A DNA stretch of 64,000 bases, from assembly GCF_014698755.1 (NCBI RefSeq), contig NZ_JACJTO010000025.1, forward strand, positions 1 to 64,000, in the 5' to 3' direction. A program made the position numbers and the translations under genes. The notes under the pieces were generated by a model. It did no database searches and was not told the origin of the DNA. It saw only the letters and a program-made list of their open reading frames with translations. This DNA is from Aphanizomenon flos-aquae FACHB-1287. Lineage in GTDB: Bacteria; Cyanobacteriota; Cyanobacteriia; Cyanobacteriales; Nostocaceae. Below are positions 1 to 18,200 of this stretch, piece by piece; within the stretch, counting starts at the first letter, position 1; every line of letters starts with the position of its first letter.

Positions 1-113
1 TTTGTCTTATATCAGTCGAATATGCTGCTGCCATATATATCTCAATTATTTTCTTTTTTTTCCATCTTTAAAGTTTACCATCTTTGTACCGCTTTTGATC
101 TCAAACTGCTGTA
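1..113 (-). mobile_element. IS630-type element end, interrupting cas12k (partial)
   Basis: The reverse strand from 113 down to 1 matches, almost base for base, the start of the IS630-like element at 59309. Shared parts are the terminal CAGCAGTTTGAGATCAAA, the following leader, and an ATG at 34-32 that begins a transposase with residues MAAAYSTDIRQ. The match starts at a TA dinucleotide (112-113), the usual IS630/mariner target, exactly where Cas12k homology stops. Only about 110 bp of the element is inside the window, so its integrity and the cas12k sequence beyond it cannot be judged. Confidence 0.8.
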
Positions 114-1399
114 ATTCTGGCTAGAGAGGAATTTTTGCGTTTGAGATGTGCCTGTTGTTTATCATTTAGATCACCTTTGGCTTTTGTCTGGGTGATGGTT
201 TTGGCAATTTCTTCGGCTTTTTCTTCTTTGACTAAGTTTGTTCCTTCCTCTGTCCACAGACGAGTATCTACACAACAATAAAGCTTTAAATGGTGAATAT
301 TCCAGGGTTCTCCTTTGCCTTCTTCTTCCTGCCAAGAGATACGACCACTACGCAGGGTAAATAAGGCACTAGAATGTTGATTTTTACTATTTTTCTTAAT
401 TTGTTGATCTTCTAGGAAACGTTGAAACCAGTGAAGTTGGCGAGAATCACAATAAATTTGAAAGGTATGCTCACTTAAACCATTAAATTTTACACATATC
501 CGCCCGAATTGATTTTTAGACCAAACTAAATCTTCGTTGGTTTCATAAGCGACTGGAAACGGCACTTGACTGGATTTTCTTAACAGAATGTTTTGCCAGA
601 ATTTCGCCTCTGTTTCATTTTCAGGGACGGTCTGAGTGGCATTAAAAAGAGTTTCTAATCTTATGGTGTCGGTTAAATCTCGTCCTTTGGGAATTCGAGC
701 CGCTAATTTTTCTGTAAGGCGTTGAATTTGGATTTCTACTTTGCGGCGACGTTGAGCAAATTTATCGGTGTTTTCTGCTTTATTGCTAATTTTACAGCCA
801 TTTTTGAGTAAATAACTAATGGCACAACGAGTTAAATTATCTTCTGTATTACTGTAAGTGTCGAATAGGTTTTTTGATAAATTACGTTCGCTATCTGAAG
901 TTGGAGATTTTTTCCCTTTTTTAGTCTTTTTACTTTTCGCTGGTTGAGTTTCAGCAGGATTTTGGGGAGCAAATTGAGCCAAAATTTCGGCAGATTTAGT
1001 CTGAAGTATATCCAAGGAGACTCCACTGGCTTCTACTAATTCAGTATCACTATTGAGCATTTCTAACCAGCGCAGTTTGCCGTCTAGTTGGGACTGAAAC
1101 CGCTTCATTAGGGCAAACCAGGATTTATAAATATAGTTTACTGATGCTGTGGCACTGGTGTAAAACCTTGCAGGTTGCCCCATGAAGCGCGGATCATTTT
1201 TCAAGGGTTCACACAGTTCTTTGACTATACCTGTGGGGTGTTTACCTTTTTGTCGCCATGTTTCAAATTCTGGGTGTTTACCAATTTGACTCAGTAGTTC
1301 GTTAATCAGTGGCGTGTTTTTCTCTACCATCAATTGCCATAGCTGTTGACGGGTAGTTTCACTGACTACTAAACGACACTGAATAGTGATTTGGCTCAT
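101..1399 (-). pseudogene. cas12k: Cas12k (type V-K CRISPR effector), 3' part cut off by an insertion
   Basis: This is the RNA-guided target-binding subunit of a type V-K CRISPR-associated transposon; family members bind DNA but do not cleave it. The N-terminus MSQITIQCRLVVSETTRQQL, the stretch KSWFALMKRFQSQLDGKLRW and the stretch SKNQHSSALFTLR are characteristic of Cas12k. Only about 428 of the usual roughly 640 residues are present. Homology ends at ...SSLARI near position 114, after which the frame reads IS630 sequence and stops at 101-103. The RuvC-like C-terminal third is therefore missing here. The rest may lie beyond the insertion outside the window. The gene diverges from cvkR across a 68-bp spacer. 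Confidence 0.9.
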
Positions 1400-1437: not shown

Positions 1438-1467
1438 ATTGTAGCAGCTTTCTGTAAAATGTTTTTT

Positions 1468-1887
1468 ATGCAAGAAAAATTTTTCACAAGTAAGGAAGCG
1501 GCTCAAATTACAGGTTGTACTCTCCGCCAGATTCAGTATTGGCGAGAGAAGGGGATTGTTGTGCCTGTGATTGGTGATACGGGTACGGGACGCAGTATTT
1601 ATTACTCCAGGTCTAATCTGGTAGAACTGGCTGCTTTGGTATATTGGCTGTCTACGGGGATAAGTTTTGATATTGCCTGTGAAACCCTGAAACAACTGAA
1701 GGAACAAGAACCGGAGTTGTTTATTTCTGGTCAGGGGAGGCGGTTTATGTTGTTGTTATCACAGGATGATTCGCTTTCTTTGGTAGAGTTTGATAGGGAA
1801 AGAGCGATCGCATCCCTGGATGAAGGTAAAGCTGTGATTCCTGTATGGTTAGATGTTGTTTATGAAAAAATAAGTGAATTAATATGA
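1468..1887 (+). CDS. cvkR: CvkR, MerR-type repressor of the type V-K transposon
   Basis: This is a small MerR-family regulator. It has an N-terminal winged helix-turn-helix with the typical FTSKEAAQITGCTLRQIQYWREKG signature, then a beta-wing region (GRSIYYSRSNLVELA) and a short effector/dimer tail. CvkR represses cas12k in Nostocales V-K CAST systems and is encoded divergently from it, as here. The start is taken at the second ATG (1468, MQEKFFTS); an ATG at 1459 adds MFF and cannot be excluded. The stop overlaps the next start by four bases (ATGA), so cvkR and the cargo operon are probably co-transcribed. No damage is visible. Confidence 0.88.
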   Translation: MQEKFFTSKEAAQITGCTLRQIQYWREKGIVVPVIGDTGTGRSIYYSRSNLVELAALVYWLSTGISFDIACETLKQLKEQEPELFISGQGRRFMLLLSQDDSLSLVEFDRERAIASLDEGKAVIPVWLDVVYEKISELI

Positions 1888-3038
1888 GCAATAACCAAAA
1901 TGATAGTTATGCTAATCTTCCTGACGAACTTTTGGAAGATATTTTAGAAGATGCGCCCAAAATAGCCGATAAAATAAAACCACTATTTGAGGAATTACAG
2001 CAACAAAGAAAAACACTACATCAAACATTAGATGATAATAATTTAATTTGTAGAGTTGGTGATTTAGAAAATCCTCCAAGTCCTTCTGTTGCTGCGGTTG
2101 ATGGAGGACAAGCTATTGAAAAATCTATCGGTGCTGATACTTTAATTGCTGTTGCTGTTGGGGTTGAAGGTTTAGTAAGAGAGGATAAGCGAAGATGGAG
2201 TTCAGTTCAATATAAAAATTGGCAAGATGTACTTCCTCATAGTTCTGAAAGTAATCCTAAAGTAACTAGAGGGGCAATGACAGCTTTAGAATTATTAGTA
2301 ATTAGTAAAACTCCTCATGATGTAGTAATTGCAGATGGTTCTCATCAAACACCTGTAATTGGAATTAATAGTTTAACCAGTATGTCAAGTTTAGATGAGC
2401 CTCATTTTCAACAAGCAACATGGGACATAATTAATAAATTTGATGTTATAGATTCTCTCAAAAAAACTATGACAAATCCTAATGTTGTCTATATGGTTAA
2501 ATATGATTCTTCACAAGATATTGGTTTAAGTTTTTTGAAAAATTTTAATTTAAAACTTGATGATAAAACAATAATGACATTAATTTTAAAATCTGACGAG
2601 TTTACAAAACCTTTACCTGTGGGTCGAACTCCTAAGACACAAGAGGTTTGGAGTTCTCTAAATATTTCACTTTCTGATAAATTTGATTTTTATGGACAAA
2701 GAGATAATATTAAAGAGGAATTAAATAAAGCTATTGTTTTACCTAAAAGTCACAAAATATACTTTACGTACTATAAACCTTATCAGTGGTCTCCTGCTTA
2801 TAGAATAGAAATCAAGGAAAACTGTGCTAAATCAGAAATTGAGCTTGCTAAAGTATTAAAAGCTGTTAAAGAGCAAGTTGTTTCTACTGAAATCAAAGAG
2901 CCTTACCCCCAGTATTTAGCTGATATGATGGCTAAAAGTATTAGTGGAGGTTTAGAAGCACTACGAGCGGTGGTACAATATCAATTTAGTGATAACCCTG
3001 ATTTTCTTCAGCTACTTACCCAATCTTACAGGACTTAA
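1884..3038 (+). CDS. NurA-domain nuclease (CAST cargo)
   Basis: This is a 384-residue protein of the NurA type, a family of Mn-dependent 5' nucleases that work with the HerA translocase in end resection or phage defence. Visible signatures are the motif VAAVDGGQAIEKSIGAD (catalytic-type Asp near residue 73), a second acidic motif VVIADGSH (Asp near 151), and a C-terminal YPQYLADMMAKSISGG. It overlaps cvkR by ATGA and is followed 19 bp later by a HerA ATPase gene with an AGGAGA ribosome site, which strongly supports the NurA call. The pairing suggests a defence or DNA-processing module carried by the transposon. The exact substrate is unknown. Confidence 0.8.
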   Translation: MSNNQNDSYANLPDELLEDILEDAPKIADKIKPLFEELQQQRKTLHQTLDDNNLICRVGDLENPPSPSVAAVDGGQAIEKSIGADTLIAVAVGVEGLVREDKRRWSSVQYKNWQDVLPHSSESNPKVTRGAMTALELLVISKTPHDVVIADGSHQTPVIGINSLTSMSSLDEPHFQQATWDIINKFDVIDSLKKTMTNPNVVYMVKYDSSQDIGLSFLKNFNLKLDDKTIMTLILKSDEFTKPLPVGRTPKTQEVWSSLNISLSDKFDFYGQRDNIKEELNKAIVLPKSHKIYFTYYKPYQWSPAYRIEIKENCAKSEIELAKVLKAVKEQVVSTEIKEPYPQYLADMMAKSISGGLEALRAVVQYQFSDNPDFLQLLTQSYRT

Positions 3039-3057
3039 TTAATACTTAGGAGAAACT

Positions 3058-4878
3058 ATGGATTTGCTTGATTTACTCAATAACCAATCAGATGAATTTA
3101 ATATTGGTAGTGTTGGTTCGCCAAGTAATACAACAGAAATTCTGATTGACATTAATCAGAAAAGCGAAAAAAAGAGAAATTTAGGACAATTAGTATATCT
3201 TATTCAACCACAAGAACAAGAAAAATTAGTCGTTATTGGACAAATTAGTGAAATAGAAACTAAAAATCGTTGGCATGAAGATTTAACCTTTAGAGGGATC
3301 ATCAAACGTAGAGGTTCACTACCTCATTTAAGTGAAAAAGCTGATGTAAGAACAGCTAAGTTGAATGTACAGGCTTGTTTTAGTATTGCACCAGATGGCA
3401 AAATTAGCGAAGGAATATTAGGAACATCTCCAGCTACAGGTACTCCAATTTTTTCTGTTCGAGATGAAATTTTAGATAACCTTTTAGCACAGTATAAAAA
3501 TCAAATTATTTATTTAGGCCATGCTTATGCTACTGATGTGAAAATGCCACTTTGGTTAAAGCATTTTGATAGAGATCCAAAAGATGCTAAAGATGATGAA
3601 AAAACAGGTGCAGGAGAGGCTTATCATATAGGTGTTTTTGGTAAAAGTGGATCAGGAAAATCTGGTTTAGCAGCTTATATGTTGTTAGGATATGCTAGAC
3701 ATAAAAATATGGGAATGATTTTTATTGATCCTCAAAATCAATTTGCAAGTGATAAAGATTTACCCTTGAAATTGCATGATTCTTTAAAAAAATTAGGTAG
3801 AAAGGTTGAAGTTTATAGTCTAACTAATCAAATTAGACTAGGAACAGAAAGTAATGCTGTAAGCCTTTTTTCTTCTATTTTATTGAAAGCGGATTTTTAT
3901 GCAAATATAGGTGTTAAATTTAAAGAAAATCAAAAGGATGCAGCTGAAAGAGTTAAAATAATTATAGCCAATATTTTATCTCAATCAAAAACAGAGTTAA
4001 AAAAAGCTCCTGATGATTTACTTATTCAGTTAATTCAATCACTTAGAAATGATAGTGTTGCTTTGGAAAGAATTTATTCAAGTAAAGAATCAAGAAAACG
4101 TTTAGAAAATACTCTTGATGATATTATGAATAATTCTCTGGAACTTAAAAGAATTAAAGAAGAAATATGGCAGCCTGTATTAGATTTATTTCTTGAAAAA
4201 GATAGTAAAGGTAATCATAGGACTTCATTATGGTATATTGTTCAAAAATCTGTTACAGATGAACAAAAACCGATTGTTTTTTTAGATATTCAAGGAAAAG
4301 GTGCAACTTTTGCAGAGAATGATGAAATCAAGGCACTCATTTTAAAAGAAATTAGTATTACTTTAAAAGTAGCTGGTGAAAAAGCTTTTAATCAAGATAA
4401 AAAATTAAATTGCTTAATTTGTCTTGATGAAGCTCATAGATTTGTTAAATCTTCTTTTGGTAGTGATGATAATACCGAAATGTCTAATTTAACAAGAGCT
4501 TTTGTTGATGGTGTAAGAACAACCAGAAAGTATGGATTAGGTTATATGTTTATCACTCAAACTATAGCATCTTTACATAAGGAAATAGTTCAACAATTAA
4601 GACTTTATGCTTTTGGATATGGTCTAACTTCTGGAAGTGAATACAGACAAATTGAAGAATTAGTAAGCGATAAACAGGCTTTGAGCTTATATAAATCATT
4701 TGTTGATCCTCAAAGTAATAAACAATATCCTTTCATGTTTCTCGGTCCTATTTCTCCTTTGTCTTTTACAGGCTCGCCTTTATTCATTCAAATGTTTACA
4801 GAATTTAATCAATTCAAAGAAGCTAATAAATTAGTAGAACAATCTCAGGGTAATTTACTTAATCAAAACACACTTTAA
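3058..4878 (+). CDS. HerA-type hexameric ATPase/translocase (CAST cargo)
   Basis: This is a 606-residue FtsK/HerA-superfamily ATPase. It has an N-terminal beta-barrel (HAS-barrel-like) region, a Walker A motif GKSGSGKS at about residues 195-202, a Walker B motif LICLDEAHRF at about 453-462 with the catalytic Glu, and an arginine-rich VRTTRKYGLGYMFITQT sensor-like segment. HerA rings pump DNA and activate NurA in archaea and in bacterial anti-phage systems. The start is supported by AGGAGA just upstream. The next gene begins two bases after its stop. No frame damage is visible, unlike the transposition genes nearby. Confidence 0.85.
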   Translation: MDLLDLLNNQSDEFNIGSVGSPSNTTEILIDINQKSEKKRNLGQLVYLIQPQEQEKLVVIGQISEIETKNRWHEDLTFRGIIKRRGSLPHLSEKADVRTAKLNVQACFSIAPDGKISEGILGTSPATGTPIFSVRDEILDNLLAQYKNQIIYLGHAYATDVKMPLWLKHFDRDPKDAKDDEKTGAGEAYHIGVFGKSGSGKSGLAAYMLLGYARHKNMGMIFIDPQNQFASDKDLPLKLHDSLKKLGRKVEVYSLTNQIRLGTESNAVSLFSSILLKADFYANIGVKFKENQKDAAERVKIIIANILSQSKTELKKAPDDLLIQLIQSLRNDSVALERIYSSKESRKRLENTLDDIMNNSLELKRIKEEIWQPVLDLFLEKDSKGNHRTSLWYIVQKSVTDEQKPIVFLDIQGKGATFAENDEIKALILKEISITLKVAGEKAFNQDKKLNCLICLDEAHRFVKSSFGSDDNTEMSNLTRAFVDGVRTTRKYGLGYMFITQTIASLHKEIVQQLRLYAFGYGLTSGSEYRQIEELVSDKQALSLYKSFVDPQSNKQYPFMFLGPISPLSFTGSPLFIQMFTEFNQFKEANKLVEQSQGNLLNQNTL

Positions 4879-4880
4879 AC

Positions 4881-5939
4881 ATGAAGCCTAAACAATTAAA
4901 TAGAATCAGAATAGAATTATTAGCAAAATTAGCAGAGTATGGCGTTGAATGGGATGTTGATTCAGAAAAGCTAATTGCTAATGACTTAAAACTAATGCAA
5001 AAACAATTAGCTCAACATACTAATTTAGGAGGACTAAAATATGAAAATAAATTCAAAGATTTTTTAGCTAAACCAGAAGAAATAGATATTCTTCAAGTTA
5101 ATCCTTATTTAGAAATGGTTGAAAATCAGAATCAAAGAGAACTTTGGAAGTATGCTACAACTTTCTGGTCAATTCCTGTTACAAATGGTTATGGTAGAAG
5201 AATACGTTTTCTAGTATTTGACGAACAGAATCATAAGTTAATTGGCATTTTTGGATTGAGTGATCCTGTTATCGGTTTAGGAATAAGAGATCAATATATT
5301 GGTTGGACAAAAGAACAAAAGTTACAAAGATTGTATAATTGTATGACTGCCTATATTTTAGGAGCAGTACCACCTTACAATTTAATTCTTGGCAGTAAAT
5401 TAATTGCTTTATGCTTAATGTTTCCAGAAGTTAGAGAAGTTTTTTATAATAAATACAAAGATAAAATATCTCTCATTTCTGGAGAAAATAAACAAGCTCA
5501 TCTTTTATACATAGATACTTTAGGAGCTTTTGGTAAATCTTCTATATATAATCGCTTGATGAATTGGAAATTTATTGGTTATACAAAAGGTCAAAGTCAT
5601 TTACATATAACAGCTAATGGAAGTTGGGAATTAATTAAACAAGTTGTTTCTGAAGATTTTTTTAATACCTATAAATTTGGACAAGGTCCCAATTGGAAAA
5701 TGAGAGTTTTAAAAGAGGGACTCAGAGAATTAGGATTTTCAGCAGATATGGTAAGTATTGGTTGGCAAAGGGGCTATTATAGTTGTCCATTAGCAGAAAA
5801 TTGGCAAGAATATCTTGTAGGAGAATCTGATATACCACAGTGGAAACCTTTTAAAAAAGATGATTTAATTGAGTATTGGAAAAATAGATGGATAATAACA
5901 AGATTAGAAAAATTAGACAATGCTTTAAAAGTAGATTAA
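4881..5939 (+). CDS. DUF4338 / DruA-like protein (CAST cargo)
   Basis: This is a 352-residue protein resembling DUF4338, the family that includes DruA of the Druantia anti-phage system. Characteristic pieces are LIGIFGLSDPVIGLGIRD, then YIGWTKEQK (about 120-147), YILGAVPPYNLILGSKLIAL (about 158-177), a GAFGKSSIYNRL motif and GYTKGQSHLHI. The function of the domain is not established. It sits two bases after the HerA gene, so the three genes probably make one system. No DruE-type helicase or other Druantia gene is present, so this is not a standard Druantia locus. Confidence 0.7.
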   Translation: MKPKQLNRIRIELLAKLAEYGVEWDVDSEKLIANDLKLMQKQLAQHTNLGGLKYENKFKDFLAKPEEIDILQVNPYLEMVENQNQRELWKYATTFWSIPVTNGYGRRIRFLVFDEQNHKLIGIFGLSDPVIGLGIRDQYIGWTKEQKLQRLYNCMTAYILGAVPPYNLILGSKLIALCLMFPEVREVFYNKYKDKISLISGENKQAHLLYIDTLGAFGKSSIYNRLMNWKFIGYTKGQSHLHITANGSWELIKQVVSEDFFNTYKFGQGPNWKMRVLKEGLRELGFSADMVSIGWQRGYYSCPLAENWQEYLVGESDIPQWKPFKKDDLIEYWKNRWIITRLEKLDNALKVD

Positions 5940-6058
5940 TATTATAAAAATATTTTATTTATCTTTATTAATCATAAAATAATAGAGTAATTATTTTATT
6001 TTCTATAACCTTTGTTAAAATTATCTAAAAATCACTCTAGTAAAATTATCTAAACCGC

Positions 6059-6880
6059 ATGACAGAACAAGAAAAAACTAATCATTATTTTGTTGACGAA
6101 GCAGGAGACTTAACATTTTTTGACAGAAAAGGCAGAATTATAGTAGGAGAACCAGGAGCATCTAAATTTTTTATGGTAGGTGTAGCCCAAATTTTTCAAC
6201 CATAACAAGTAACTTTAGAACTTGCAGAACTCAGAAAACAACTTTGTTCTAATCCACGCTTTAAAGACATTCCCTCAATGCAACCCTCAGCCAACAAAAC
6301 AGCAATTACCTTTCATGCAAAAGACGATCATCAAGATGTCAGAATGGAAGTATTTAAACTAATGCAAACTTTTGAAATTAAAATGTATATAGCTATCAGA
6401 TATAAAGCAGAATTAGCAGTAGCTACTCAAAAAACTTATGAAACTCTGAGCAAAAAGACAAATCAAGATGATATATATGATGATCTAGTCAAACGACTAT
6501 TTAAAGATAGATTACATAAAGCAAATATTAATCATATCGTTTTTGCTAGACGTGGTAAAACTGCACGGGAAGAAGCACTACAACAAGCTATTAATCAAGC
6601 AAAAAGAAATTTTGAAACAAAATGGAAAATATCTTCCGATAGTACAACTATTATTAAACCAGCTTACCCATCAGAGTATGCAGGGTTACAAGTTGTTGAT
6701 TACTATTTATGGGCTTTACAAAGATTATATGAACGTCATGAAGATAAATATTTTATTCCACTTGCTCAAAAATACAGGATGATTATGGATTTAGATGATC
6801 GGCGAAATAAGAACTATGGAGAGTGGTACACCGATTCTAACCCGCTATCATTGGATAAACTTAAATGGTTTGTGGGCTAG
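6059..6880 (+). pseudogene. DUF3800 protein with an in-frame stop
   Basis: The frame opens at ATG 6059 with HYFVDEAGDLTFF, the N-terminal acidic motif of DUF3800 (an RNase H-like fold common in mobile and defence loci). It stops at TAA 6203-6205 after 48 residues. The same frame then continues for 200 or more residues to 6880, including the C-terminal EYAGLQVVDYYLWALQRLYE motif. One base change (CAA to TAA) explains the break, so this is either a recent pseudogene or a sequencing error. An internal ATG at 6278 could give a truncated product lacking the first acidic motif. It follows the DUF4338 gene by 119 bp. Confidence 0.75.
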
Positions 6881-6933
6881 GTTTAAGTAGACAAGCCACT
6901 TAAACACACGGCATGAAGCCGACGTTCACCCAC
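6881..6933 (+). other. Structured remnant resembling an IS200/IS605 right end
   Basis: Immediately after the DUF3800 stop there is a stem GTTTAAGT/ACTTAAAC (6881-6888 with 6898-6905). It is followed by a second stem CGGC-ATGAA-GCCG (6909-6921) inside a GGCATGAAGCCG context. The latter recurs at the right ends of IS200/IS605 elements, where it forms part of the TnpB guide RNA scaffold. No tnpA or tnpB is present. The alternative is a simple terminator for the cargo operon. Confidence 0.35.
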
Positions 6934-7041
6934 AGTTATATTATATCATTGATATTAAAAACTTGCAAATAATGTAATGAATTAAAACCAATATTGTGGT
7001 TAATATGTACCATAAAATAGCAAGCGATCGCTCATGATATC

Positions 7042-7545
7042 CTAAATTTTCTTTTGATGTTGTACCATCTCCCCAAACGGCATAAAACACCTTTGACACC
7101 AACCATCAACCCACAACGCCGGAACTTTAAACCTAGCCCCACAATTAGGACATTCAGACAGCAAACTTAAATGATGATGCTGACACCCCTGAGTCACCTT
7201 AAACTGCCACTCAATCCGATGACAAGGCGACTCTATATAACAAGCAGCACAAAGCCGAATAGGTTCAAGATTCATTCCCACCCCAGCAGGTGGTAACATC
7301 TGCTCTAACCTATCAGCATCAACCCCCACAACCTTAGCCAAAGCCTCCAATTGTTGCCGATAAGGAGGGGGATTAAAACGAAACTTTTCCCATCTGGATA
7401 TCGCACCCCCAACCCCAGCAGCCTTACCTAAACCAGTAGTGGTTAAATCATTTGCCCGTCGAAAGCGTCCCAAAAAATGACTCAAACTTTCTCCCGGATA
7501 TGGTTCTACCTGAAACAACCAAGGATTAATTTCCCCAACTTCCAT
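7042..7545 (-). CDS. tniQ: TniQ, target-site adaptor of the V-K transposon
   Basis: At 167 residues it matches the short TniQ of type V-K systems, which bridges Cas12k to the TnsC filament. The N-terminus PWLFQVEPYPGESLSHFLGR is the TniQ signature. It is followed by a helix-turn-helix-like region (about 33-80) and Cys-rich zinc-finger motifs (CAACYIESPCH, CPNCGARF, CQRCF) towards the C-terminus. It is in frame and apparently intact. Its ATG overlaps the ancestral stop of tnsC by one base (7545), so it was translated with tnsC. It is probably the only intact Tns/Tni gene of this element. Confidence 0.92.
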   Translation of the reverse strand: MEVGEINPWLFQVEPYPGESLSHFLGRFRRANDLTTTGLGKAAGVGGAISRWEKFRFNPPPYRQQLEALAKVVGVDADRLEQMLPPAGVGMNLEPIRLCAACYIESPCHRIEWQFKVTQGCQHHHLSLLSECPNCGARFKVPALWVDGWCQRCFMPFGEMVQHQKKI

Positions 7546-8378
7546 TATTTATACTCCGCCGTTACTTCCTTGAGAGTTTCCAAATCAATCTTTGATAATC
7601 CCTTCTTTAAAGCCCGAATAGCCGACTAGAAAGAGAATCATATCCAGCAACCCAATATAACCCCCAGTTGCCTCACCCAAAGTCTTCAACATTGCCTTAC
7701 TAGAAAGATTAGAAGCAACAGGCAGTTTTAAAACTTGCTTTTCCCAAATCTCCACAGTGCGCTTAAAATCTTCCCCAGAAAACTTACCAAACCGATGACA
7801 GGCGCGAAAACGGTTATAAACCTGCTCATCTCGCTTGATTACAGCGTCTAATCGGTCAGTACCCACCAAAATCACCGCAATTTCCAATTTGTCAAAAATA
7901 TCCCGCACCTCCGCAAAAGTTTTTTAAAACGATCAGCTTCATCAATAATCAGCATTTCTACCCCACACCCTTTGAGAACCCGCAGCGTTCTATCTCTAAT
8001 CTCTGCCACCGTTCCCTTAGCCATTTGATACTTCAAATGCTCAATAATTGTGGCAAATAACTCCTTAGCACTACATTCTTGAGGTATTTGGATATAAGCA
8101 ACAGGCACAGTTGGCGGTTTTCCTGGTTCTTGTTTAGGTTTATGCCTGAGTCTGTAGGCATCACAACCCATAGTTTTACCCGTTCTTGACTCTCCTAGCA
8201 CCCTACCAGACTGCCGTGATTGTCGCTTACCATCTAACCAATCATGGAGCATTTTCACCTGTTCCAAGGGAATAAAACTCTTCCGATTCAATCGGTGAAT
8301 TTCTGCTTGTAATTTCTCATCATTAGGGAGAATATCACCTAATTCTTGAGCAACACTTTCGGCTTGTTGTGAAGTCAT
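7545..8378 (-). pseudogene. tnsC: TnsC AAA+ regulator, two frameshifts
   Basis: This is the AAA+ ATPase that forms the filament recruiting TnsB. The first frame (8378 to about 7926) carries Walker A GESRTGKT and Walker B MLIIDEADR. At a run of six T (six A on the coding strand, 7920-7925) homology jumps by -1 into the frame of MRDIFDKLEIAVILVGTDRLDAVIKRDEQV. A second one-base shift near 7621-7636 is needed to recover the C-terminus IRALKKGLSKIDLETLKEVTAEYK ending at TAA 7545-7547. Restored, it would be about 277 residues, the usual V-K size. Both shifts together make a functional protein unlikely unless they are sequencing errors. Confidence 0.88.
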
Positions 8379-8381
8379 GAT

Positions 8382-9910
8382 TTACCACCCGTAATCTTCG
8401 CGCATTTGTTCATAATCAAAAACCTCTGGCATATCTGGTTCTGAGGCAGTTTCCACAGATACCACTTCTATTTCTTCAAATTCAACAATCACAGGTTTTT
8501 TAACCTTTTCAACTACAATCTGTTCTTCTTTTTGGCGTTTTTTTTTCGTTTTCTTTTGCTTAACAAAAGTTTCTCTGTCTCTTACCTCAGCCAAAATCGA
8601 ACGATTGCTAATCTCTTTACCTGCTTGTCGAATCCTGCGACTCATGGCTTTAGCCTCATCCAGAGATAATTCTTCAGTCTCCAAATCTTGAGCATAAGCA
8701 CGAGCTAAAAATTCTTCTTGAGAACCTGTTTGGCGATAAACCAAGATAGTTGTAATGTCTTTGGGGTTAAATCGCAACACCACGCTTTCCCCTGCATAAC
8801 CAGCCAGATTTTCACCCCGATATGTCAGATTTTCAAATTGCAGATATCCACCCCTGTAAATCGAGCGTCGAGTTTGTTTCATTAAACAAATACGCAAATC
8901 TTCTTCTGAGATTAAATCAGGTGCAACAATTAACCCAGCTTCCCATCTTTGATAACGAGTTTGATCTCCTAAACGAGCATCAATACTTTGGTTATATTTG
9001 TCTATGAGATACCTTACCAATAGACGTTCTAATTCTCGTAAAGTTAAACAAGCTTCTTTCTCCGCTTCCTCTGGACGTTCCTGAACATTTGAACCTGTGT
9101 ATTCTGGTAAGGTAGAAAATAAATCAGTATTTAAAGTACCAAAAGGACGTTCGACAATACCGCCTTCACTGGGGCGATAGCGAAGCGCTCCGTAGGAATC
9201 TCGGAGATGGCAAGCAAATCCTAACTGCACACCAATCTGTTGCAAATGGTTAGAGCGAAAATCTTTACCCCCATCAGTAAAAAAGTGTTCTGGTTTGCCA
9301 TAAGTTCCCCATTCCTGATGTAGTCCGTATTCTGCCCCATATTTTTTAGGTAATATGGCATGACGTAGCGCCTAAGCCACAACCTGAGAACTTGGTGAGT
9401 CAAAACCTAAATTAATGCCTATGATACACCGGGAGTAAGTATCTATAACTGTTGTCAGCCAAGGACGAGCTAAAAGTTCACCGTGTTTATCCACCAGTAA
9501 AATATCAGCACGAGTATGGTCACACTGCCAGATATGATTGCTGTATTCTACTGATAAATCTAGTCCGTCACGGGTTTTCAGTGATAATCGAGAACCGCGC
9601 CAACCAGGAGTGCGGATGCTTTTTGCTTTTTCTTGCTTTTCAATCACAGGTTCAAGAATACGGTAAACAGTCATGTGAGAAGGAGGCTTGACACCTAGTT
9701 GATCCGCTCTTACCTTCACTCTGATTACTACTTGTTGGCGAGTCATGCGTTTACCGCCCTTATTACCTTCCTTATAAGTCTTGAGAATAAACTCCTGCCA
9801 GTTTTCATCAACTCGGTGCTTACCCTTATCAACCCGGTCAGTTTTTTGGCGGTAACACTTTCAGTTTCTAAGTTATCTGGAGTTATAGGTGTTTCATTCC
9901 TCATATACAT
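8382..9910 (-). pseudogene. tnsB: TnsB DDE transposase, multiply damaged
   Basis: Homology to V-K TnsB runs from about 9830 to 8382. It includes WQCDHTRADILLVD (first catalytic Asp), HFFTDGGKDFRSNHL (second Asp) and RPSEGGIVERPF (catalytic Glu), and ends VFDYEQMREDYGW. There are four lesions. The N-terminus (ATG 9910, MYMRNETP) is joined after about 24 residues to DRVDKGKHR, so roughly 75 residues with the HTH are missing. A -1 shift lies at six A/T (9842-9847). A TAG at 9372-9374 replaces a Leu-type codon. A 21-bp in-frame insertion lies at 9177-9197. The C-terminal 287-residue frame alone cannot transpose. Confidence 0.9.
9177..9197 (-). repeat. 21-bp dispersed repeat inserted in frame in tnsB
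   Basis: Between HLRD and RPSEGG the gene has seven extra codons (SYGALRY) that TnsB relatives lack. The DNA reads GGAGCGCTTCGCTAT in its core, the same as the dispersed cyanobacterial repeat at 62168-62182 here. The insertion sits a few residues before the catalytic Glu. Confidence 0.6.
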
Positions 9911-10190
9911 TGATGTTTAATTGGAACATATTTGTACATTATAAATCAAAAGTGACATTTAATGTGTGAAATTTTCAGAAGTAGAGTAGTTTACATGGAT
10001 TTTAGGAATTGACACTTAAATTGTTAATTTTCCTTTTTTTGACAATTAATTTGTTAAAAAAGTTTTCAGAAAATGATTAGAAGGTATAACAACTAAACCC
10101 TGCTATAATCCTTATTAAAGCAGGGTTTCAATAGTTTTTATTTTTTGTGACAATATTCTGTTAAATTGTCAAATAATTAGTTAATGTACA
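9911..10190. mobile_element. Left end (LE) of the V-K transposon
   Basis: Upstream of tnsB the sequence ends in the outward-facing terminus TGTACA (10185-10190 on +; reading inward on the minus strand TGTACATTAACTAATTATTT). Behind it are several TGACA/TGTCA-cored repeats (9952-9956, about 10010-10014, 10040-10044, 10148-10152 and 10167-10171), the pattern of TnsB-binding sites in Tn7-like ends. AAATT (10191-10195) would be one copy of the 5-bp target duplication. The partner right end is outside the window, so the duplication cannot be confirmed. Confidence 0.6.
10095..10128 (+). terminator. Hairpin inside the LE, possible terminator
   Basis: AAACCCTGCT (10095-10104) and AGCAGGGTTT (10119-10128) form a perfect 10-bp stem with a 14-base loop. 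A T-rich tract (10134-10146) follows on the plus strand. It could stop transcription leaving or entering the transposon, or it could be a structural part of the end. Confidence 0.45.
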
Positions 10191-10437
10191 AAATTGGCTG
10201 ATTAAAACTCAAGTCGCACGATTACTGTATATTGGGAGAATGGCTTGCTTTTAATGAAAGTGCGATGCTTTCGGCGAGCGGAGCTATCGCTCTAAATAAA
10301 GTTTTATGAACTATATTTAAATATTATTATTGCAGCAATGGATAATACTCCTGTACTCTTGAAGAATATCAATCAATATCATGACAATGTGATGGTTGAA
10401 ATCTGAAACTATACTTTAATTCAGCGTAAAAAACGGA
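10191..10437. other. Spacer between the transposon end and the R-M pair
   Basis: There is no open frame and no recognisable tRNA, although V-K elements often sit near tRNA genes. It contains one degenerate copy of the GGAGC..TATCGCTC dispersed repeat (about 10266-10294), and the rest is AT-rich. It probably holds the promoter of the methyltransferase gene, but no convincing -35/-10 pair stands out. Confidence 0.4.
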
Positions 10438-13400
10438 ATGTCACAGTCTGGACTACTTGAACTAGCATACGAAAAACTTCACTGGCCAACTCCACAAGAA
10501 ATTTTGGAGCCATCTGGTGCTGGTCCAAGTGTTTATGCACGAATCGCTAAAGAAAAATTAGGTAGAACTATCAGCAAACTTTCAGATGGTTATGGTGTGC
10601 AAATAGGCGTGCTGTCGGCAAATCCTCAAGGTGACTCAACAGAAACACCTATTGCCTTAGTGTGCGATTTTCCAGGAGAAGTATCAGAGGAAACATTAAA
10701 GAAAACTTATAGACTTGCTTGGAGTTTTTCGCGTACGCCATCACTCATTACAACAGAACCTAACCGATTAAGAATTTGGACGTGCTATGAAGAACCTCCA
10801 AAAGAAAAAGATATTATCAATCCCATAATTGATATTTCCAAACGGGAAATTGAGTCATTTAATCAGGTGTCTCTTTCAGGTCAAGCTGCTGAAACTTTGC
10901 GGTTACACTGGGCTGATTTAGTATCAGGTCAATTTTTTCAAGAACATAGCCAGCGATTTCAACGCAGTCAAGCTGCTGACCAAATATTATTGAAAAATCT
11001 GAAAAGTGTTAGGGAAAGACTTCAAAAAAAAGAACTTGATGATGACACAATTCATGATTTATTAGTAAGAATTATTTTTATTCAATTCCTTTTTGACCGT
11101 CAAGATTCTGACGGTAATCCTGCCTTAAATACAACTTTACTGGATTACTTGTATACAACTGAGAAATTATTATCGGCTAGATACTCTCGTTTAGCTGACA
11201 TATTAAGAAATCATAGAGATACTTATAAATTTTTCCGTTGGCTCAACGGCAAGTTCAATGGTGATTTATTCCCAGGTAAAGGTGCTACTGAAGAAGAACA
11301 TGAAGCTGAATGGCAAATAGAAGAACAAAAAGTTAAACAGCCTCATCTAAATATACTTGCTGATTTTGTTAGTGGTCAGAAAGACATTGAAACTGGACAA
11401 TTAAGCCTATGGCCATACTACCATTTTGACGTTATACCTTTGGAGTTTATTAGCAGTATATATGAAGAATTTGTCAGTAAAGAATCTGGCACAGGAGTTC
11501 ATTACACACCAGAACATATAGTTGATTTTGTACTAGATGGTGTTTTACCTTGGGATAGTGAAGAATGGGATATGAAGATTCTTGATCCTGCTTGTGGTTC
11601 AGGAATTTTTATAGTTAAAGCATTCCAACGTTTAATTTATAGATGGGAACAAGCTCATCCAAAAACAATTCAGCCAAGTGATTTAAAATATTTACTAGAA
11701 AATAATTTATTTGGTGTTGATGTAGATGCTCAAGCTGTAAGAGTCGCATCTTTTAGTCTGTATTTAACCATGCTAGATAAAGTTGAACCTCAATATTATT
11801 GGGAGAATGAGTTTCGCTTTCCTAGATTACGTGAACGTCAATTAATTGCTGCTGATTTTTTTCAAGAAGATAAAGAAGGTTTTCGTTCTGTTGAAGATGC
11901 TAGTAAATATGATTTAGTTGTTGGTAATGCACCCTGGGGTAAAAATACTGTCACTCCGGCAGCAAAATCTTGGGCTAGAGATGTTTGGACAATAACCTAT
12001 GGTAATATTGGTCCACTTTTCCTGCCAAAAGCTGCTGCTTTAACTAAATCTGGTGGACAAATAGCAATGATGCAACCTGCACTGGCTTTGATTTTTAATC
12101 AGGTCGGCACTGCTCAAGAATTTAGATCCAGACTTTTTTCAGAGTTCAAAATTGACGAAATAGTTAATTTGTCTGCATTGCGTTTTGGACTTTTCAAAGA
12201 TGCTATTTCTCCAGCTTGTATCATCACTATGTCAGCAATGCCTCCTGACGGTGAGCCTTTGATATACATTTGTCCCAAGCCCGTTATGACAAATGAGGAT
12301 GACTATCATATAGTAATTGAGCCAGATTATATTAATATAATTTACCCACAAGAGGCAATAACAGATCCATTAATTTGGACAGCTTTAATGTGGGGAGGAA
12401 GACGCGATCTGAATCTTATTAGGAGATTAAGTAGATTTAATAATCTTACACAATTAGAGAATAATAATATTGCTATTACTAGTCAGGGAATAATTAGAGG
12501 TACTAATAAACAAAGGTATAATCATCTTTTAAATAGACGAATTTTAGAAACGAAAAATTTCCCAAAAAATACATCTATTTGTATTAGTAAAAATGATTTT
12601 TCTATTAATCAAGATCCCTACGCTGAACGAGGAAGATCAACAAAAATAGATGCTTTCAATTTACCACAATTAATAATCAAGCAAAGCTGGCTAGTAGAAA
12701 ATAAACGATTTAGAGCAGAACTAACTGAATTAGATGGAACTAATGAAGGAATTATTTGCTCTAGTAGCTATGTCAGTGTGCACATTGCCGAAGAAAATTC
12801 TTTAATATTAGAAGCAGCTTGTCTGAGCTACAACAGTAAATTAGCTGTCTATTATCTACTACTTTCAAGTGGTCGTTTTGCCTCTTATATTCCAGAAGTC
12901 AATATAGACGATTTACTGCGTGTGCCAATACCTGAATTATCGGTAGGAGATTTGCAGAATATAAAAACATTTGATGATATAGATGAGCGTATACGACAAG
13001 CTTTTGAATTTAAAGATAGTGAATGGGTGCTAATTAATGATCTATTTAATTACACTCTGCCAGACTTTAAAGGAGATGGTGCTTCTCCAGGACGCAAAAG
13101 AACTCACCGTATAGATAATAATCAATCTCAGAATAATACTGAACCTGAACTTACGGCATATTGTGAGTATTTCTTGCGAGTTCTTAAAGCAGGATTTGGA
13201 CAAGATAAACAAGTTTGCGCCACCATATTTCAGGAACAAACTAAGACTCTTCTTCCTGTCCGCTTAGTAGCTATTCATCTTAATAAACCTGATTCTGAAG
13301 GTATTCATATTAAACCTATGGACTCCCCTGATTTAATGGAACGCTTGGAAAATTTAAATAAGTTGTATCTAGAAAGAGGAAGTATAGAAGACGGTGGCAT

Positions 13401-13605
13401 CTTTTATCAGCGTGTTGCCAGGATTTATGATTCTGTAGAATTGAATGGGGTGAAAATTCCTACTATTTATTTAATCAAACCTGACAAAATTCGTTATTGG
13501 ACTCGCTCTATGGCTTTAAGAGATGCTGACGAAGTGGCCGCAGATATTATGACATGGCGAACAACATTTGATGAAAAATCGCAGCTTATAGAGGAGTCAT
13601 ACTAA
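10438..13605 (+). CDS. Large N6-adenine DNA methyltransferase (R-M subunit)
   Basis: This 1055-residue protein contains a gamma-class N6-adenine methyltransferase core. The SAM-binding motif is DPACGSGIF (about 383-391) and the catalytic motif is NAPW (about 497-500, a variant of NPPW). A helical and target-recognition region of more than 400 residues follows, as in Eco57I/type IIG or PglX-like enzymes. The N-terminal 370 residues show no clear nuclease motif. The stop overlaps the next start (TAATG), and that neighbour carries a PD-(D/E)XK motif, so methylation and cleavage appear split over two proteins. It lies outside the CAST left end, or inside an older composite element. Confidence 0.8.
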   Translation: MSQSGLLELAYEKLHWPTPQEILEPSGAGPSVYARIAKEKLGRTISKLSDGYGVQIGVLSANPQGDSTETPIALVCDFPGEVSEETLKKTYRLAWSFSRTPSLITTEPNRLRIWTCYEEPPKEKDIINPIIDISKREIESFNQVSLSGQAAETLRLHWADLVSGQFFQEHSQRFQRSQAADQILLKNLKSVRERLQKKELDDDTIHDLLVRIIFIQFLFDRQDSDGNPALNTTLLDYLYTTEKLLSARYSRLADILRNHRDTYKFFRWLNGKFNGDLFPGKGATEEEHEAEWQIEEQKVKQPHLNILADFVSGQKDIETGQLSLWPYYHFDVIPLEFISSIYEEFVSKESGTGVHYTPEHIVDFVLDGVLPWDSEEWDMKILDPACGSGIFIVKAFQRLIYRWEQAHPKTIQPSDLKYLLENNLFGVDVDAQAVRVASFSLYLTMLDKVEPQYYWENEFRFPRLRERQLIAADFFQEDKEGFRSVEDASKYDLVVGNAPWGKNTVTPAAKSWARDVWTITYGNIGPLFLPKAAALTKSGGQIAMMQPALALIFNQVGTAQEFRSRLFSEFKIDEIVNLSALRFGLFKDAISPACIITMSAMPPDGEPLIYICPKPVMTNEDDYHIVIEPDYINIIYPQEAITDPLIWTALMWGGRRDLNLIRRLSRFNNLTQLENNNIAITSQGIIRGTNKQRYNHLLNRRILETKNFPKNTSICISKNDFSINQDPYAERGRSTKIDAFNLPQLIIKQSWLVENKRFRAELTELDGTNEGIICSSSYVSVHIAEENSLILEAACLSYNSKLAVYYLLLSSGRFASYIPEVNIDDLLRVPIPELSVGDLQNIKTFDDIDERIRQAFEFKDSEWVLINDLFNYTLPDFKGDGASPGRKRTHRIDNNQSQNNTEPELTAYCEYFLRVLKAGFGQDKQVCATIFQEQTKTLLPVRLVAIHLNKPDSEGIHIKPMDSPDLMERLENLNKLYLERGSIEDGGIFYQRVARIYDSVELNGVKIPTIYLIKPDKIRYWTRSMALRDADEVAADIMTWRTTFDEKSQLIEESY

Positions 13606-14294
13606 TGGTTAGAAGAGGTAAAACAATTCCAGAATTACGTTGGAAAGATACACCGGACTTTGTTGAAGTAGCAAAAGGTTGGAACAATGATGCAATAACA
13701 ATTCTCGTCAAACTTGTCTGGGAAGGATATGATTTGCTGGTTGCCGAGATTCTATCACAAATTAATTGTGATGAAGCAGACGAGCAAATAGAAAGGAGCA
13801 TCACTCAATCTCTTGAGCGCAGAATCCGCAGAAATATGACGGGAGATGAGCCATTTGATGTTCAACATGAAGTTTACGAAATAGAAAGTAGTCAATCAGC
13901 ACAAGCACAACCACCACAATATGATATTGCATTTTATCTAATCTCTAATGAGAGGATTATCTGGCCTTTAGAAGCTAAAGTGTTGAAAACAGATGGCGCA
14001 GTAGGGGACTATATAAAAGAGATAAATGAAAACTTTATAACTTGTAGATATGCACCCTTTTCTAGTCAAGGAGGAATGCTGGGTTATCTTTTTTCTGGTG
14101 ATCCTAACAAAGCTTTTACCAATATTGAAACTAAAGTACCATGCACATTAAATGATCATCCAGATTTTCCAATTCGTGATCACAAAACCTCGGATCACCA
14201 ACGAGTAGTTCCTCCGGGAAAATCATATCCTGCTGAATTTCGCTGTCACCATTTACTATTAAAAATAGCTACTAATAATATACCTTCAGTATAA
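13605..14294 (+). CDS. PD-(D/E)XK-type nuclease partner of the methyltransferase
   Basis: This 229-residue protein starts on the TAATG overlap with the methyltransferase gene. The segment PQYDIAFYLISNERIIWPLEAKVLK has the spacing D-x(n)-E-x-K of a PD-(D/E)XK nuclease (D near 107, E-A-K near 122-124). The N-terminus carries a Trp-rich WKDTPDFVEVAKGWNND stretch. I do not recognise a named family. The tight coupling makes it the likely restriction subunit. Less probably it is a non-nuclease accessory protein. Confidence 0.6.
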   Translation: MVRRGKTIPELRWKDTPDFVEVAKGWNNDAITILVKLVWEGYDLLVAEILSQINCDEADEQIERSITQSLERRIRRNMTGDEPFDVQHEVYEIESSQSAQAQPPQYDIAFYLISNERIIWPLEAKVLKTDGAVGDYIKEINENFITCRYAPFSSQGGMLGYLFSGDPNKAFTNIETKVPCTLNDHPDFPIRDHKTSDHQRVVPPGKSYPAEFRCHHLLLKIATNNIPSV

Positions 14295-14310
14295 TTAATT
14301 CAAAACTTAC

Positions 14311-14496
14311 TCAAATACCCTTCTGACTCTTTACCATCTCCCCAAAAGACGTAAAACACCGATGACACCAACCATCAACCCACAAAGCTGGAACTCTAAA
14401 CCTACCCCCACAATTAGGACACTCAGACAACAAACTTAAATGATGAAGCAGACACCCCTGAGTTACCTTAAACTGCCACTCAATCCGACGACAAGG
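14311..14496 (-). pseudogene. C-terminal fragment of a second tniQ
   Basis: Reading the minus strand gives PCRRIEWQFKVTQGCLLHHL and CPNCGGRF..ALWVDGWCHRCF, ending at a TGA (14311-14313). This aligns without gaps to the last 60 or so residues of the intact TniQ at 7042-7545. By eye the DNA is about 88% identical, so it is a diverged relative and not a recent copy. The 5' part is missing at about 14497. It is in the same orientation as the intact gene, which suggests the remains of a second, older V-K transposon. Confidence 0.85.
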
Positions 14497-14636
14497 CAGG
14501 GGAAACGCATCTAAATTTTATTGATAAAATACCGTTTTAATACATGAACCAAGAAATCCTATTAATTAGAATTAATATAACTACTCTTGTATCTTAATAT
14601 ATTGTGTTATTTATTCGTGTAATTAATTCTGTCTAA

Positions 14637-14986
14637 TTACTTATTATGTTCTAAAAATGCGTCACTATTGGAACTATAAACAAAAGGTATATCTAATATT
14701 TCTGCATAGTTAAGTGCTTGCTGCATTCCACTACCAACACCGTAGTTATTATCTTTCGCTTCAATGACATTAATTTGGATATTAGATTTGTAATAAAGAA
14801 TATAATCAGCGCGTTTACTTTCTCCTCTTGTGCTAATTTACCTCTTACATAGACTCGACCGGCTGTAAAAGGTACTTCTTCACGAATTTGGGTGTATAAA
14901 TTCCATGCTGCTGTTTGTACTATAGCTGGAGTTATGTATTTAGTACAGATATCGCGCTCACTGAGGGCTTTTTTGTCAAAGTCCAT
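14637..14986 (-). pseudogene. hsdR: Fragment of a type I restriction R subunit (HsdR N-terminus)
   Basis: The frame from ATG 14986 reads MDFDKKALSERDICTKYITP, then TQIREEVPFTAGRVYVRGKLA, the typical start of EcoR124-like HsdR. A frameshift near 14830 must be corrected to continue as ESKRADYILYYKSN and VIEAKDNNYGVGSGMQQAL, the HSDR_N nuclease motif (D..E-A-K). The frame ends at TAA 14637-14639, right after SSNSDAF. Helicase domains and hsdM/hsdS are absent, so it is a relic. In-frame sequence extends upstream to an ATG at 15070 but does not look like HsdR. Confidence 0.75.
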
Positions 14987-15215
14987 AGGATTTATTCTTG
15001 TTATGTCTTCAGCACTTATATTACTTATTGTATCAGTAACTGCAATTTTAACAATCACTTTCCCTGACATTTAAAAAAAAATTGTTTTGAGATTGTAAAT
15101 TTTTGTAAAATTGATGTCTTTAAAACTAGAAATATGCCTATTAGATAGCTAAACTAACAAAAAGTGCATCTGTACTCTTAACAATCAAAATTGTCAATGT
15201 GGCACAATAGCTTGA

Positions 15216-18200
15216 ATGATTCCAATTCAACTTATCATTAAAAACTTTCTCAGTTACCGTGATGCAGCTTTAGATTTTAGCGGCTTGCATACGGCGTGTA
15301 TTTGTGGTTCTAATGGTGCGGGAAAATCTTCCCTTTTAGAAGCTATTACTTGGGCAATTTGGGGCGAAAGCCGTGCTACTGTTGAGGATGATGTCATTCA
15401 TTCTGGCGCGAAAGAAGTCCGCATTGATTTCACTTTCCAAAGTGGTCAGCAAACTTATCGGGTAATTCGCAACCGGGTCAGGGGTGGAACTAGTATTTTA
15501 GAATTTCAAATTGAAACTACTTCCGGTTTTCGTGCTTTGACTGGTAAGGGTTTAAAAGCCACTCAGGATGTAATTCTCGAACATATTAAGTTAGATTATG
15601 AGACTTTTATTAATTCTGCTTATTTGCGTCAGGGAAAAGCCGATGAATTTATGCTCAAACGTCCCGCTGAACGTAAGGAAATTTTAGCAGAATTATTGAA
15701 ATTAAATCAGTATGATGAACTAGAAGAAAGGGCAAAAAATAGTTTTAAAATATACAGAATACGCGGAGAAGACTTAGAACGTTCTTTAGAAAATATTAAG
15801 GTTCAACTTCAACAACGGGAAATAACGGAAAATCAACGCGCTGAATTAGAAGCACAACTACAGGATTTACAACAGGTACAAACCTTTGAAAATAGTCAAT
15901 TACAAAGTTTACAAGTTATTCAACATCAAAGACAAAATTGGGAACAACAATTAAATTTTTTGCGCCAAAGATATGATAATCTCAGTCAAGATAGCGATCG
16001 CTTACAACAAGAACAAATAGCTGTAAAATCCCAATTAGCAGACTTAGAAAAGATCTTAAATCAAGAAGTTGATATTCAAGCCGGTTATACTCAATATCAA
16101 AATCTCCAATCTCAAGAAGAAATCTTGTCCGGTAAATTTGAACAACATACCCGCGCTACTAATTTAAAACAACAAAAACAACAACAGTTATATAAACAAA
16201 CTCAAGATTTAGAACGTCAATTACAACAAGCTGAAGCTCAATTAGCAGCTTTAGAACAACAAGAACAAGAAATTATTCAAACCCTAAGTAAATCTGGAGA
16301 TATTGAAACAGCTTTATCACAATTAAATAATGCCCGTCAGCATTTAGCTAATTTAGATCAATTGCAAATGCAAGTAACACCATTATTACAACAAAGGGTA
16401 AAATTACAAACTCAATTAGATCGTACTCATGCTAGTTTAGTAGCAAAATTAGAGCAAATCCAAGCCACAGAAAAACAATTACAAAATCAACACCATCGTC
16501 AACCCCAATTACAACAAGCATTAACAGAAATAGGAACGCAGATTGAAGAATTAGAAAAAAAGCGCGTTTATCTACAAAGAGTCCAGGAAAAAGGCCAGGA
16601 AAGACGACATTTTATTGAACGGTTACAAGCTCACCAAGGAGATTATGAAAAGTTATTAGCAGAACTAGAACAAAAATTGCAAATGTTACAAAATCCCGAT
16701 GCTCTTTGTCCTTTATGTGAACGTCCTTTAGATGAACATCATTGGAGTAAAGTTATCGAAAAAACTCAATCAGAATATGAAGATACTCAAGGACAATTTT
16801 GGGTAGTCCGGGAACAAATGGCGTTTTCAGATCGGGAAATTCAGGTACTCAGACAGGAATATCGAGAAATATCCCAAAAGTTATCCGGTTATGATTCATT
16901 GCGGGAAAAACGAGGACAATTAGCCGCACAGTTACAAGCTACAACTGATGTCCAACAACAGTTACTCCAAATTATTTCTGAAAAAGAACATTTAGAACAT
17001 TCTTTAGAAATTGGTGATTATGCCCCGGAAAAACAAGCGGAAATTCAAGAATTAGATCACTATCTCCAACAACTTAATTATAGTGAAAAAGACCACTCTC
17101 TTGCCCGTAGTGAGGTGGATAAGTTCCGTTGGGCAGAAATCAAACAAGGACAAATTAAGGATGCCTTAAAACGCCAAGCACAACTAATAGCTAAAAAACC
17201 AGAATTAACAACAAATATTTCTCAACTACAATTACAACTACAACAGGGACAAACTGATTCTAATTTTGCCCAAGAAATCGCTAATTTAGAACAGCAAATT
17301 TCAGAAATTGCCTATAATTATGAACAACATAATTACCTGCGTCAAAGTGTCCGTCAAGGTCAAAGTTGGCAGTTACGTCATCAACAATTATTATCAGCAC
17401 AGGAGCAATATCCCCAATTCAGAAATAAAAGTCAAGATCTAGAATATTCATTACAAACAATATTCAAAGAGAAGCAAACATTAATTCAACAAATTGATAA
17501 CATTGTTAAACAATTATCTGATAGTGCTAACCCAACAGCCCAAATTAATACTTTAGAACAACAATTAGCAAATCGCAGACGAGAACTAGATAATAAAATT
17601 TCTCAGTTGGGACAATTAAAACAAATGTCGCTGCAATTGGCAACTTTACAAAATCAGTATGAACAAGATGGGCAACAGTTGCAAATTTGTAAACAACAAC
17701 AGCGTGTTTATCAAGAATTAGCCCAAGCTTTTGGGAAAAATGGCATTCAAGCTTTAATGATTGAAAATATTTTACCTCAATTGGAAGCAGAAGCCAATCA
17801 ATTACTTTCTCGATTGAGCGCCAATCAATTTCACGTTCAATTTATCACCCAAAAAGCGGGACGTAGTGGCAAATCCAGCAAGAAAAATGCTAAATTAATA
17901 GACACATTAGATATTTTAATTGCTGACGCTAGGGGAACAAGATCCTATGAAACCTATTCTGGAGGAGAAGCTTTTAGAATTAACTTTGCTATTCGTTTAG
18001 CTTTAGCCAAATTATTAGCACAAAGAGCAGGAGCATCATTACAATTATTAGTTGTAGATGAAGGATTTGGCACTCAAGATGGGGAAGGATGCGATCGCTT
18101 AGTTGCCGCAATTAATGCCATATCCTCTGATTTTGCCTGTATCCTCACTGTAACCCATATGCCCCACCTCAAAGAAGCTTTCCAAGCCAGAATAGAAGTG

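Follow-up and report, generated by a model that had tools for sequence, protein, structure and literature searches.

The fragment at 14,314 to 14,496 of the analysed DNA is very probably the 3' stump of a tniQ gene (tniQ2) from an older type V-K CAST, which we designate CAST2. What remains of CAST2 is the last codons of its cvkR gene (cvkR2), a restriction gene pair and the tail of tniQ2. The DNA analysed, hereafter the window, is a stretch of 64,000 nt from Aphanizomenon flos-aquae FACHB-1287, starting at the first base of a contig (C18; NZ_JACJTO010000025.1) of a 4.35-Mb assembly of 85 contigs. It also carries a younger, broken V-K CAST (CAST1) directly beside the relic. The features of both elements are listed in Table 1.

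Table 1. Features of CAST1, CAST2 and the adjoining DNA (positions in the window unless a contig is named).
Feature	Position	Strand	Basis or remark
cas12k of CAST1, N-terminal two thirds	101..1399	-	continues at C85:113-730; split by inserted element
cvkR1, MerR-type regulator	1459..1887	+	profile match
CAST1 cargo: NurA-like, HerA-like and DruA proteins, DUF3800 gene	1884..6880	+	ORFs, profile scans
tniQ1 of CAST1, intact	7042..7545	-	ORF, profile and genome search
tnsC of CAST1, frameshifted	7585..8378	-	homology search
tnsB of CAST1, broken by in-frame stops	8382..9848	-	homology search
tnsB-side end of CAST1	9930..10190	-	terminal TGTACA at 10185-10190, abuts cvkR2 stump directly
cvkR2 stump, last four codons and stop	10191..10205	+	read from G009 alignment
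CAST2 cargo gene 1, putative type IIG-like restriction enzyme-methyltransferase, 1055 aa, intact	10438..13605	+	methylase and IIG profiles match
CAST2 cargo gene 2, 229-aa partner, intact	13605..14294	+	ORF list, profile scans
tniQ2 3' flank, common to G009 CAST, absent from tniQ1 of the window	14295..14313	-	sequence comparison
tniQ2 relic, last 61 codons of V-K TniQ	14314..14496	-	stop codon 14311-14313; homology ends at 14497
Two short dispersed repeats	14497..14643	.	14497-14566, many copies in genus; 14556-14643
hsdR N-terminal remnant, adjoins sbcC-like gene	14642..15073	-	

A repeat search of the window detected a 185-nt direct repeat (7044–7228 against 14313–14497) with 88% identity. 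A TniQ protein search of the whole genome found two places, the intact gene (7045–7545) and 14317–14499; the second match covered residues 106–166 (80%, E 2.7e-32) and was free of stop codons. The match is real and far above chance. That tail is the whole of the V-K type TniQ in CAST2; the profile TniQ_0_V-K was matched at E 1.5e-76 by tniQ1, which was the protein scanned. The preliminary description, made from the sequence of the window, had assigned the fragment to the last ~60 residues of a V-K TniQ with about 88% DNA identity to the first copy and in the same orientation, all of which was borne out. Its spacing of 6.8 kb needs correction to 7.27 kb from start to start. It had also called the first copy intact, which is true of the gene tniQ1 and not of the remaining CAST1, whose tnsB, tnsC and cas12k are broken.

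The relic is closer to the tniQ of a relative with a two-contig assembly (G009) than to tniQ1. Over 203 aligned nucleotides, the relic with its 3' flank was 93.1% identical to G009 and 81.3% to tniQ1. The tniQ phylogeny that the preliminary description had proposed grouped the relic with the G009 gene, apart from tniQ1, with a support of 98/97; the tree used 12 of 14 rows, with the two shortest left out, and its bootstrap had not settled. Local duplication of 7042–7230, named in that description as the event that would overturn its reading, was tested and failed. Shared orientation and 88% identity are what such a duplication would leave; the 3' flank and the sequence side with G009, the homology to the G009 cargo is unbroken, and a tree constrained to join the relic with tniQ1 was rejected (p-AU 8.8e-6), so that we regard this origin as having practically no chance of being correct. 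Between the relic tail and G009 we counted 8 nonsynonymous and 4 synonymous changes (dN/dS 0.48), which is not enough for a verdict on selection.

We searched 60 genomes, including the one under study, with 13605–15230 as the query. The match in G009 was unbroken and linked the second restriction gene to the tail of tniQ. This genome has one V-K CAST, adjoining tRNA-Pro, in the order tnsB, tnsC, tniQ, restriction pair, cvkR, cas12k and CRISPR, with residues 1–58 the only part of tnsC found. The window aligned contiguously to it over 10187–14497, from the cvkR end to tniQ, at 88.6–89.4%, which places the CAST2 cargo between cvkR and tniQ with the 3' ends of both towards the cargo. In G009, the counterpart of 10191–10205 is the last part of a cvkR tail that occurs in duplicate; the stump, 15 nt long, was recognized through G009 only and is too short for a search match of its own. 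Contiguity with G009 and the clade joining the two tniQ sequences thus indicated that a second V-K CAST had existed with the restriction pair as its cargo, in agreement with the preliminary description, for in the G009 CAST the pair lies after tniQ, in unbroken sequence with it, and before cvkR. Since the assembly yielded no further copy of tnsB, tnsC or cas12k, CAST2 is a relic and not an element. The same pair recurs in two further relatives, G005 (L034) and G002 (L036), adjoining pieces of CAST genes. Both G009 and G005 have one full cvkR plus extra copies of its last 25–30 codons (L032 2822–3351; L057 12693–15412): a single extra copy in G009, and in G005 a pair of them, of which the second is ~2 kb off.

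Judged from its methylase and IIG profile matches, the first cargo gene may encode a type IIG-like restriction-modification enzyme, an N6-methylase with a fused nuclease, and its partner protein gave no match in three family libraries. The dN/dS of the first gene was 0.33 against G009, 0.28 against G005 and 0.29 against G002, with zero stops across the 1038–1055 codons compared in these three relatives; that of the second gene was 0.35 against G009 and 0.22 against G033. The CAST2 cargo is intact and under purifying selection. Restriction genes are reported to be frequent cargo of V-K CASTs (PMC9938897).

On the right side, tniQ2 is cut at 14497 by the short dispersed repeats, which lead into the hsdR remnant. 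One of them (14556–14643) matches sequence adjoining an IS630 transposase gene on an Anabaena plasmid. The genome has hsdRMS with full-length ORFs on another contig (C23), and in G009 full-length hsdR, hsdM and hsdS ORFs adjoin sbcC. The complete relatives have tRNA-Thr and sbcC at widely separated places (2.96 and 3.52 Mb in G009, 1.49 and 2.11 Mb in G005, 4.86 and 2.78 Mb in G007), indicating that a rearrangement brought sbcC to the right side of CAST2, whose original site is a matter of inference. Flank synteny revealed no clean empty site, the flanks not being neighbours in complete relatives; coaX and lepA of this genome are likewise on other contigs. Insertion elements would have cut the far side of CAST2 and joined the hsdR/sbcC region to it. 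Such an edge, made of insertion-element sequence fused to hsdR in a locus order unlike that of the relatives, could also belong to a free-standing island, in which insertion elements or recombination brought together the restriction pair and the tniQ tail and no CAST2 was ever inserted here. G033 fits that account, having the pair and no CAST gene found in a 20-kb stretch. The cvkR2 stump on the other side of the cargo and the CAST remnants adjoining the same cargo in G002, G005 and G009 argue against it, and we consider it unlikely. Elsewhere in the window, an exact 39-bp tandem duplication (21972–22049) near the start of a 253-aa ORF adds 13 residues.

CAST1 contains cas12k, tnsB, tnsC and tniQ, three of the four broken; its cas12k is split by an insertion and also has a nonsense codon. 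A second contig (C85:113–1426) carries the remaining cas12k, a tracrRNA/CRISPR part and the other end of CAST1. C18 and C85 start with similar element ends at the cas12k split (84% over 32 nt), which we read as probable parts of one inserted element; the link between the contigs spans this unassembled insertion element. The CRISPR part of CAST1 shows a truncated repeat and an anchor spacer (C85:1277–1293) that matches tRNA-Thr(CGT) at 17 of 17 positions, with a GTA PAM (GTN type) located 63 nt from the end. This distance falls within the 46–82 nt given for V-K CASTs, with one exception of 147, in PMC9938897. The NurA-like, HerA-like and DruA genes of the cargo stand in one row (1884–5939), a possible defence module, and the DUF3800 gene looks broken upstream of 6278. 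Two copies of a 43-nt element, 74% alike, lie upstream of cas12k (1396–1438) and of tnsB (9894–9936); they may represent paired operators for CvkR, or the likeness may be due to chance. Deletion of cvkR raises cas12k and tnsB, according to PMC9938897.

The two elements meet without a gap, the terminal TGTACA of CAST1 being flush with the cvkR2 stump. No 5-bp target-site duplication was found at CAST1, with TCTTT on the tRNA side and AAATT on the cvkR2 side in one orientation, so the junction was rearranged and is not a simple insertion. The flanks did not match at the CASTs of G009 (TTAGA/AATGC) and G015 (L059; GCAAG/GATTG) either, and in G004, where the two CAST ends are on different contigs, they differ too; the genus thus provided no positive control for this check. 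In G002 (L036 5540–5550), the restriction cargo breaks off at a cvkR position that agrees to ~1 bp with that in the window (10185–10205). What adjoins the break there is the start of cas12k and not a CAST end; the cut may therefore predate CAST1.

We infer that CAST2 sat at the tRNA-Thr gene and that CAST1 came later, guided by its anchor spacer. The half of CAST2 that is absent would then have disappeared in one of two ways: nesting followed by recombination between homologous parts of the CASTs, or replicative transposition that deleted the adjoining DNA. The preliminary description had proposed nested elements; because no target-site duplication is left, nesting stands as one of two readings that fit the junction. 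On this reading, CAST1 entered CAST2 at the 3' end of cvkR2, and recombination between the cas12k/CRISPR parts then removed one copy, which would leave tRNA-Thr, one CRISPR side, CAST1 and the CAST2 stump in that order. The flush TGTACA, the single cas12k and the missing shared duplication are consistent with it, as is the common orientation of tniQ1 and tniQ2, by which the repeats would be direct. Recombination also predicts a mosaic cas12k; none was seen against G009, G005 and G004, a comparison of low power, and this counts against nesting, as do its need for an off-target insertion and the G002 cut, which at the same place needs no CAST1. On balance, we give nesting close to an even chance, on the lower side.

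Alternatively, CAST1 landed through its anchor spacer between tRNA-Thr and CAST2, and intramolecular replicative transposition from its tnsB-side end deleted the DNA up to cvkR2. This would set the deletion edge flush with the transposon end, as observed. V-K elements are without TnsA, and ShCAST made cointegrates in E. coli, as described in the review PMC11406308; the mismatched flanks in G009 and G015 (L059) also agree with this course. No direct observation of such deletions is known for V-K elements, the argument from duplications has no positive control in the genus, and the G002 cut again requires no CAST1. Furthermore, V-K CASTs seem to possess target immunity according to the same review, which speaks against landing beside a CAST2 that had its ends. 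An adjacent deletion is therefore a possible course to which we give distinctly less than an even chance.

The tRNA-Thr landing site is reused within the genus. We compared the tRNA-Thr(CGT) locus in 11 genomes and found CAST ends or scars in six of them (G000, G001, G004, G006, G008, G013); the tRNA-Thr(CGT) stretches of the other five (G002, G003, G005, G007, G009) showed no CAST gene. The distance from PAM to end was 63 nt in the genome under study, 53 in G008, 64 in G006 and, measured to an altered end, 62 in G001. In G002, the restriction cargo lies elsewhere, adjoining a piece that resembles tRNA-Thr, in which ARAGORN detected no tRNA. Reuse, as the preliminary description had supposed in calling this a repeated CAST landing site, is thus supported by traces in six of 11 genomes, and the site is probably not at 14311 but at the tRNA-Thr gene on C85.

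We then surveyed cvkR and tniQ in 16 genomes of the genus, including the one under study, sorting the matches into full, C-terminal, N-terminal and internal (our own classes). The 29 cvkR matches comprised seven of full length (one at 42% identity), 19 C-terminal and three internal pieces, with none that was N-terminal only; some of the C-terminal pieces are the extra tails beside a full cvkR in G009 and G005. For tniQ, 30 match rows were obtained: eight full or nearly so, 14 C-terminal, six N-terminal and two internal. One N-terminal and both internal rows adjoin a C-terminal row of the same gene, so one of the 14 is a frameshifted, nearly full tniQ; an N-terminal piece in G006 runs directly into the tail of its own gene. 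These counts speak for a proposed general process in which selection would retain the cargo while the flanking transposition and CRISPR genes are deleted, so that the scars left are the ends of cvkR and tniQ that face the cargo; the existence of N-terminal tniQ pieces counts against it.

Besides the window, 11 of the fetched genus loci showed a convergent pair of remnants, with cargo between a cvkR piece and a truncated tniQ (L060, L061, L062, L063, L064, L066, L078, L149, L150, L151 and the inner unit of L152). We read them as CAST ghosts whose cargo stayed. Neither cas12k nor tnsB was found in ten of them, all except L152 (E 1e-3, within the locus stretch; for L149 this means a contig of 4.7 kb), and L150 retains 22 residues of TnsC. 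The cvkR piece reaches the C-terminus in 9/11 and is internal in L066 and L151; the tniQ piece is shortest in L151, at 21 residues, and amounts to most of the gene in L060 and L061. The L152 unit, in G005, lies inside a CAST of another lineage (6376–11163) that retains tnsB, tnsC and tniQ. It is a small ghost directly after the tniQ of that CAST, made of two cvkR tails, a 214-aa ORF and a tniQ tail.

Seven of the 11 paired remnants adjoin a tRNA gene. Among the 15 fetched loci in which cvkR survives only as a piece, a tRNA gene lies within 270 bp of that piece in 10 (L060–L064, L149, L150, L154, L155, L158) and at 1.0–1.3 kb in L078 and L080; none was found at L066, L151 and L152. At about 9600–12700 of L064 (G007) is a mini-CAST bounded by two ends of different types, with an anchor spacer and cargo-facing remnants, in which no tnsB, tnsC or cas12k was found; it is possibly mobilizable in trans. 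The scan for CAST-end repeats used our own consensus, which misses other end types.

Matches to defence families were found in the cargo of six of the 11 paired remnants, two of them weak. The cargo comprises hsdS, PtuA, PtuB and hsdM in L062, a type IIG enzyme in L063, MkoA and MkoB in L060, and LmuA, LmuB and LmuC in L151; the weaker cases are a HerA-like protein with a weak methylase match (L149) and a Schlafen/AlbA domain protein (L066). We counted as non-defence L150, in which two of four ORFs were scanned and gave one weak match (E 4e-4), as well as L064 and L061, whose ORFs (three small ones and one of 90 aa, respectively) were outside the scan. L078 has no ORF of at least 90 aa, and the single L152 gene had no match. 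A type IIG cargo is also present in L059, a half-decayed CAST.

Outside the order, plasmid3 of Planktothrix agardhii NIES-204 carries a MerR fragment (cvkR residues 80–142), a methylase, three more genes and a broken tniQ, of which residues 14–78 and 102–167 were found and thus more than a tail. A TniQ search of the plasmid collection returned 11 records, including four Nostoc plasmids in which residues 122–167 alone were matched, and a CvkR search returned three other records, all C-terminal pieces (residues 32–139, 56–139 and 86–136). No record of the collection appeared in both searches, the Planktothrix cvkR piece being visible by direct comparison only. Eight loci of other genera were also examined, and CASTs of other genera of the family provided two cases of stacking. 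In G021 (L161 8817–13902), a CAST with complete-length TnsB, TnsC and TniQ matches has a second, truncated tniQ deeper in its cargo, the two copies lying 1.7 kb apart in one orientation; G025 (L162 8763–12564) has two decayed tniQ copies, 2.4 kb apart and also in one orientation. These cases indicate that the pair in the window is one instance of a recurring arrangement.

The relic is a decayed member of a known family. V-K CASTs with CvkR of the AnCAST type share the order tRNA, anchor spacer, CRISPR, cas12k, cvkR, cargo, tniQ, tnsC and tnsB; in comparison, CAST2 retains only the cargo and two cargo-facing gene ends, and CAST1 retains the parts and is inactivated. Decay of V-K CASTs is known as well, with 12 degenerate Cas12k proteins left out of the tree in PMC9938897. 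Unlike those degenerate CASTs, the ghosts have no cas12k and are recognized by their cvkR and tniQ ends. The regulator search in PMC9938897 used E values of 1e-20 at most and would have missed short tails. The ghosts resemble the Tn7-like transposons treated in PMC8649781 in having restriction and other defence genes as cargo; the survey there begins from delineated transposons, so ghosts without tnsB would have been missed. In the open-licence literature, we found no paper joining Cas12k with defence islands and none on Cas12k transposon remnants in cyanobacteria, an absence that is weak evidence. What is new is the recurring ghost with two scars, which in one genus is often linked, on the counts above, to defence genes and tRNA sites; a single related case comes from outside this genus.

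We tentatively propose, at a little short of an even chance, that the tRNA-linked defence islands of these cyanobacteria were built by successive V-K CASTs. An element would home to a tRNA gene, deliver a defence module and lose its CRISPR and transposase sides; this loss would free the tRNA and remove any ends that confer immunity. The next element would land on the stump and sometimes swallow the old cargo, giving two tniQ genes in one CAST. If this is true, the flush junctions without duplication would be natural traces of V-K replicative resolution in the elements' own hosts. Surveys starting from tnsB or cas12k would miss such ghosts, and the two scars, the cvkR end and the tniQ end, would offer a simple marker for genes brought by RNA-guided transposition after the element itself has been lost.
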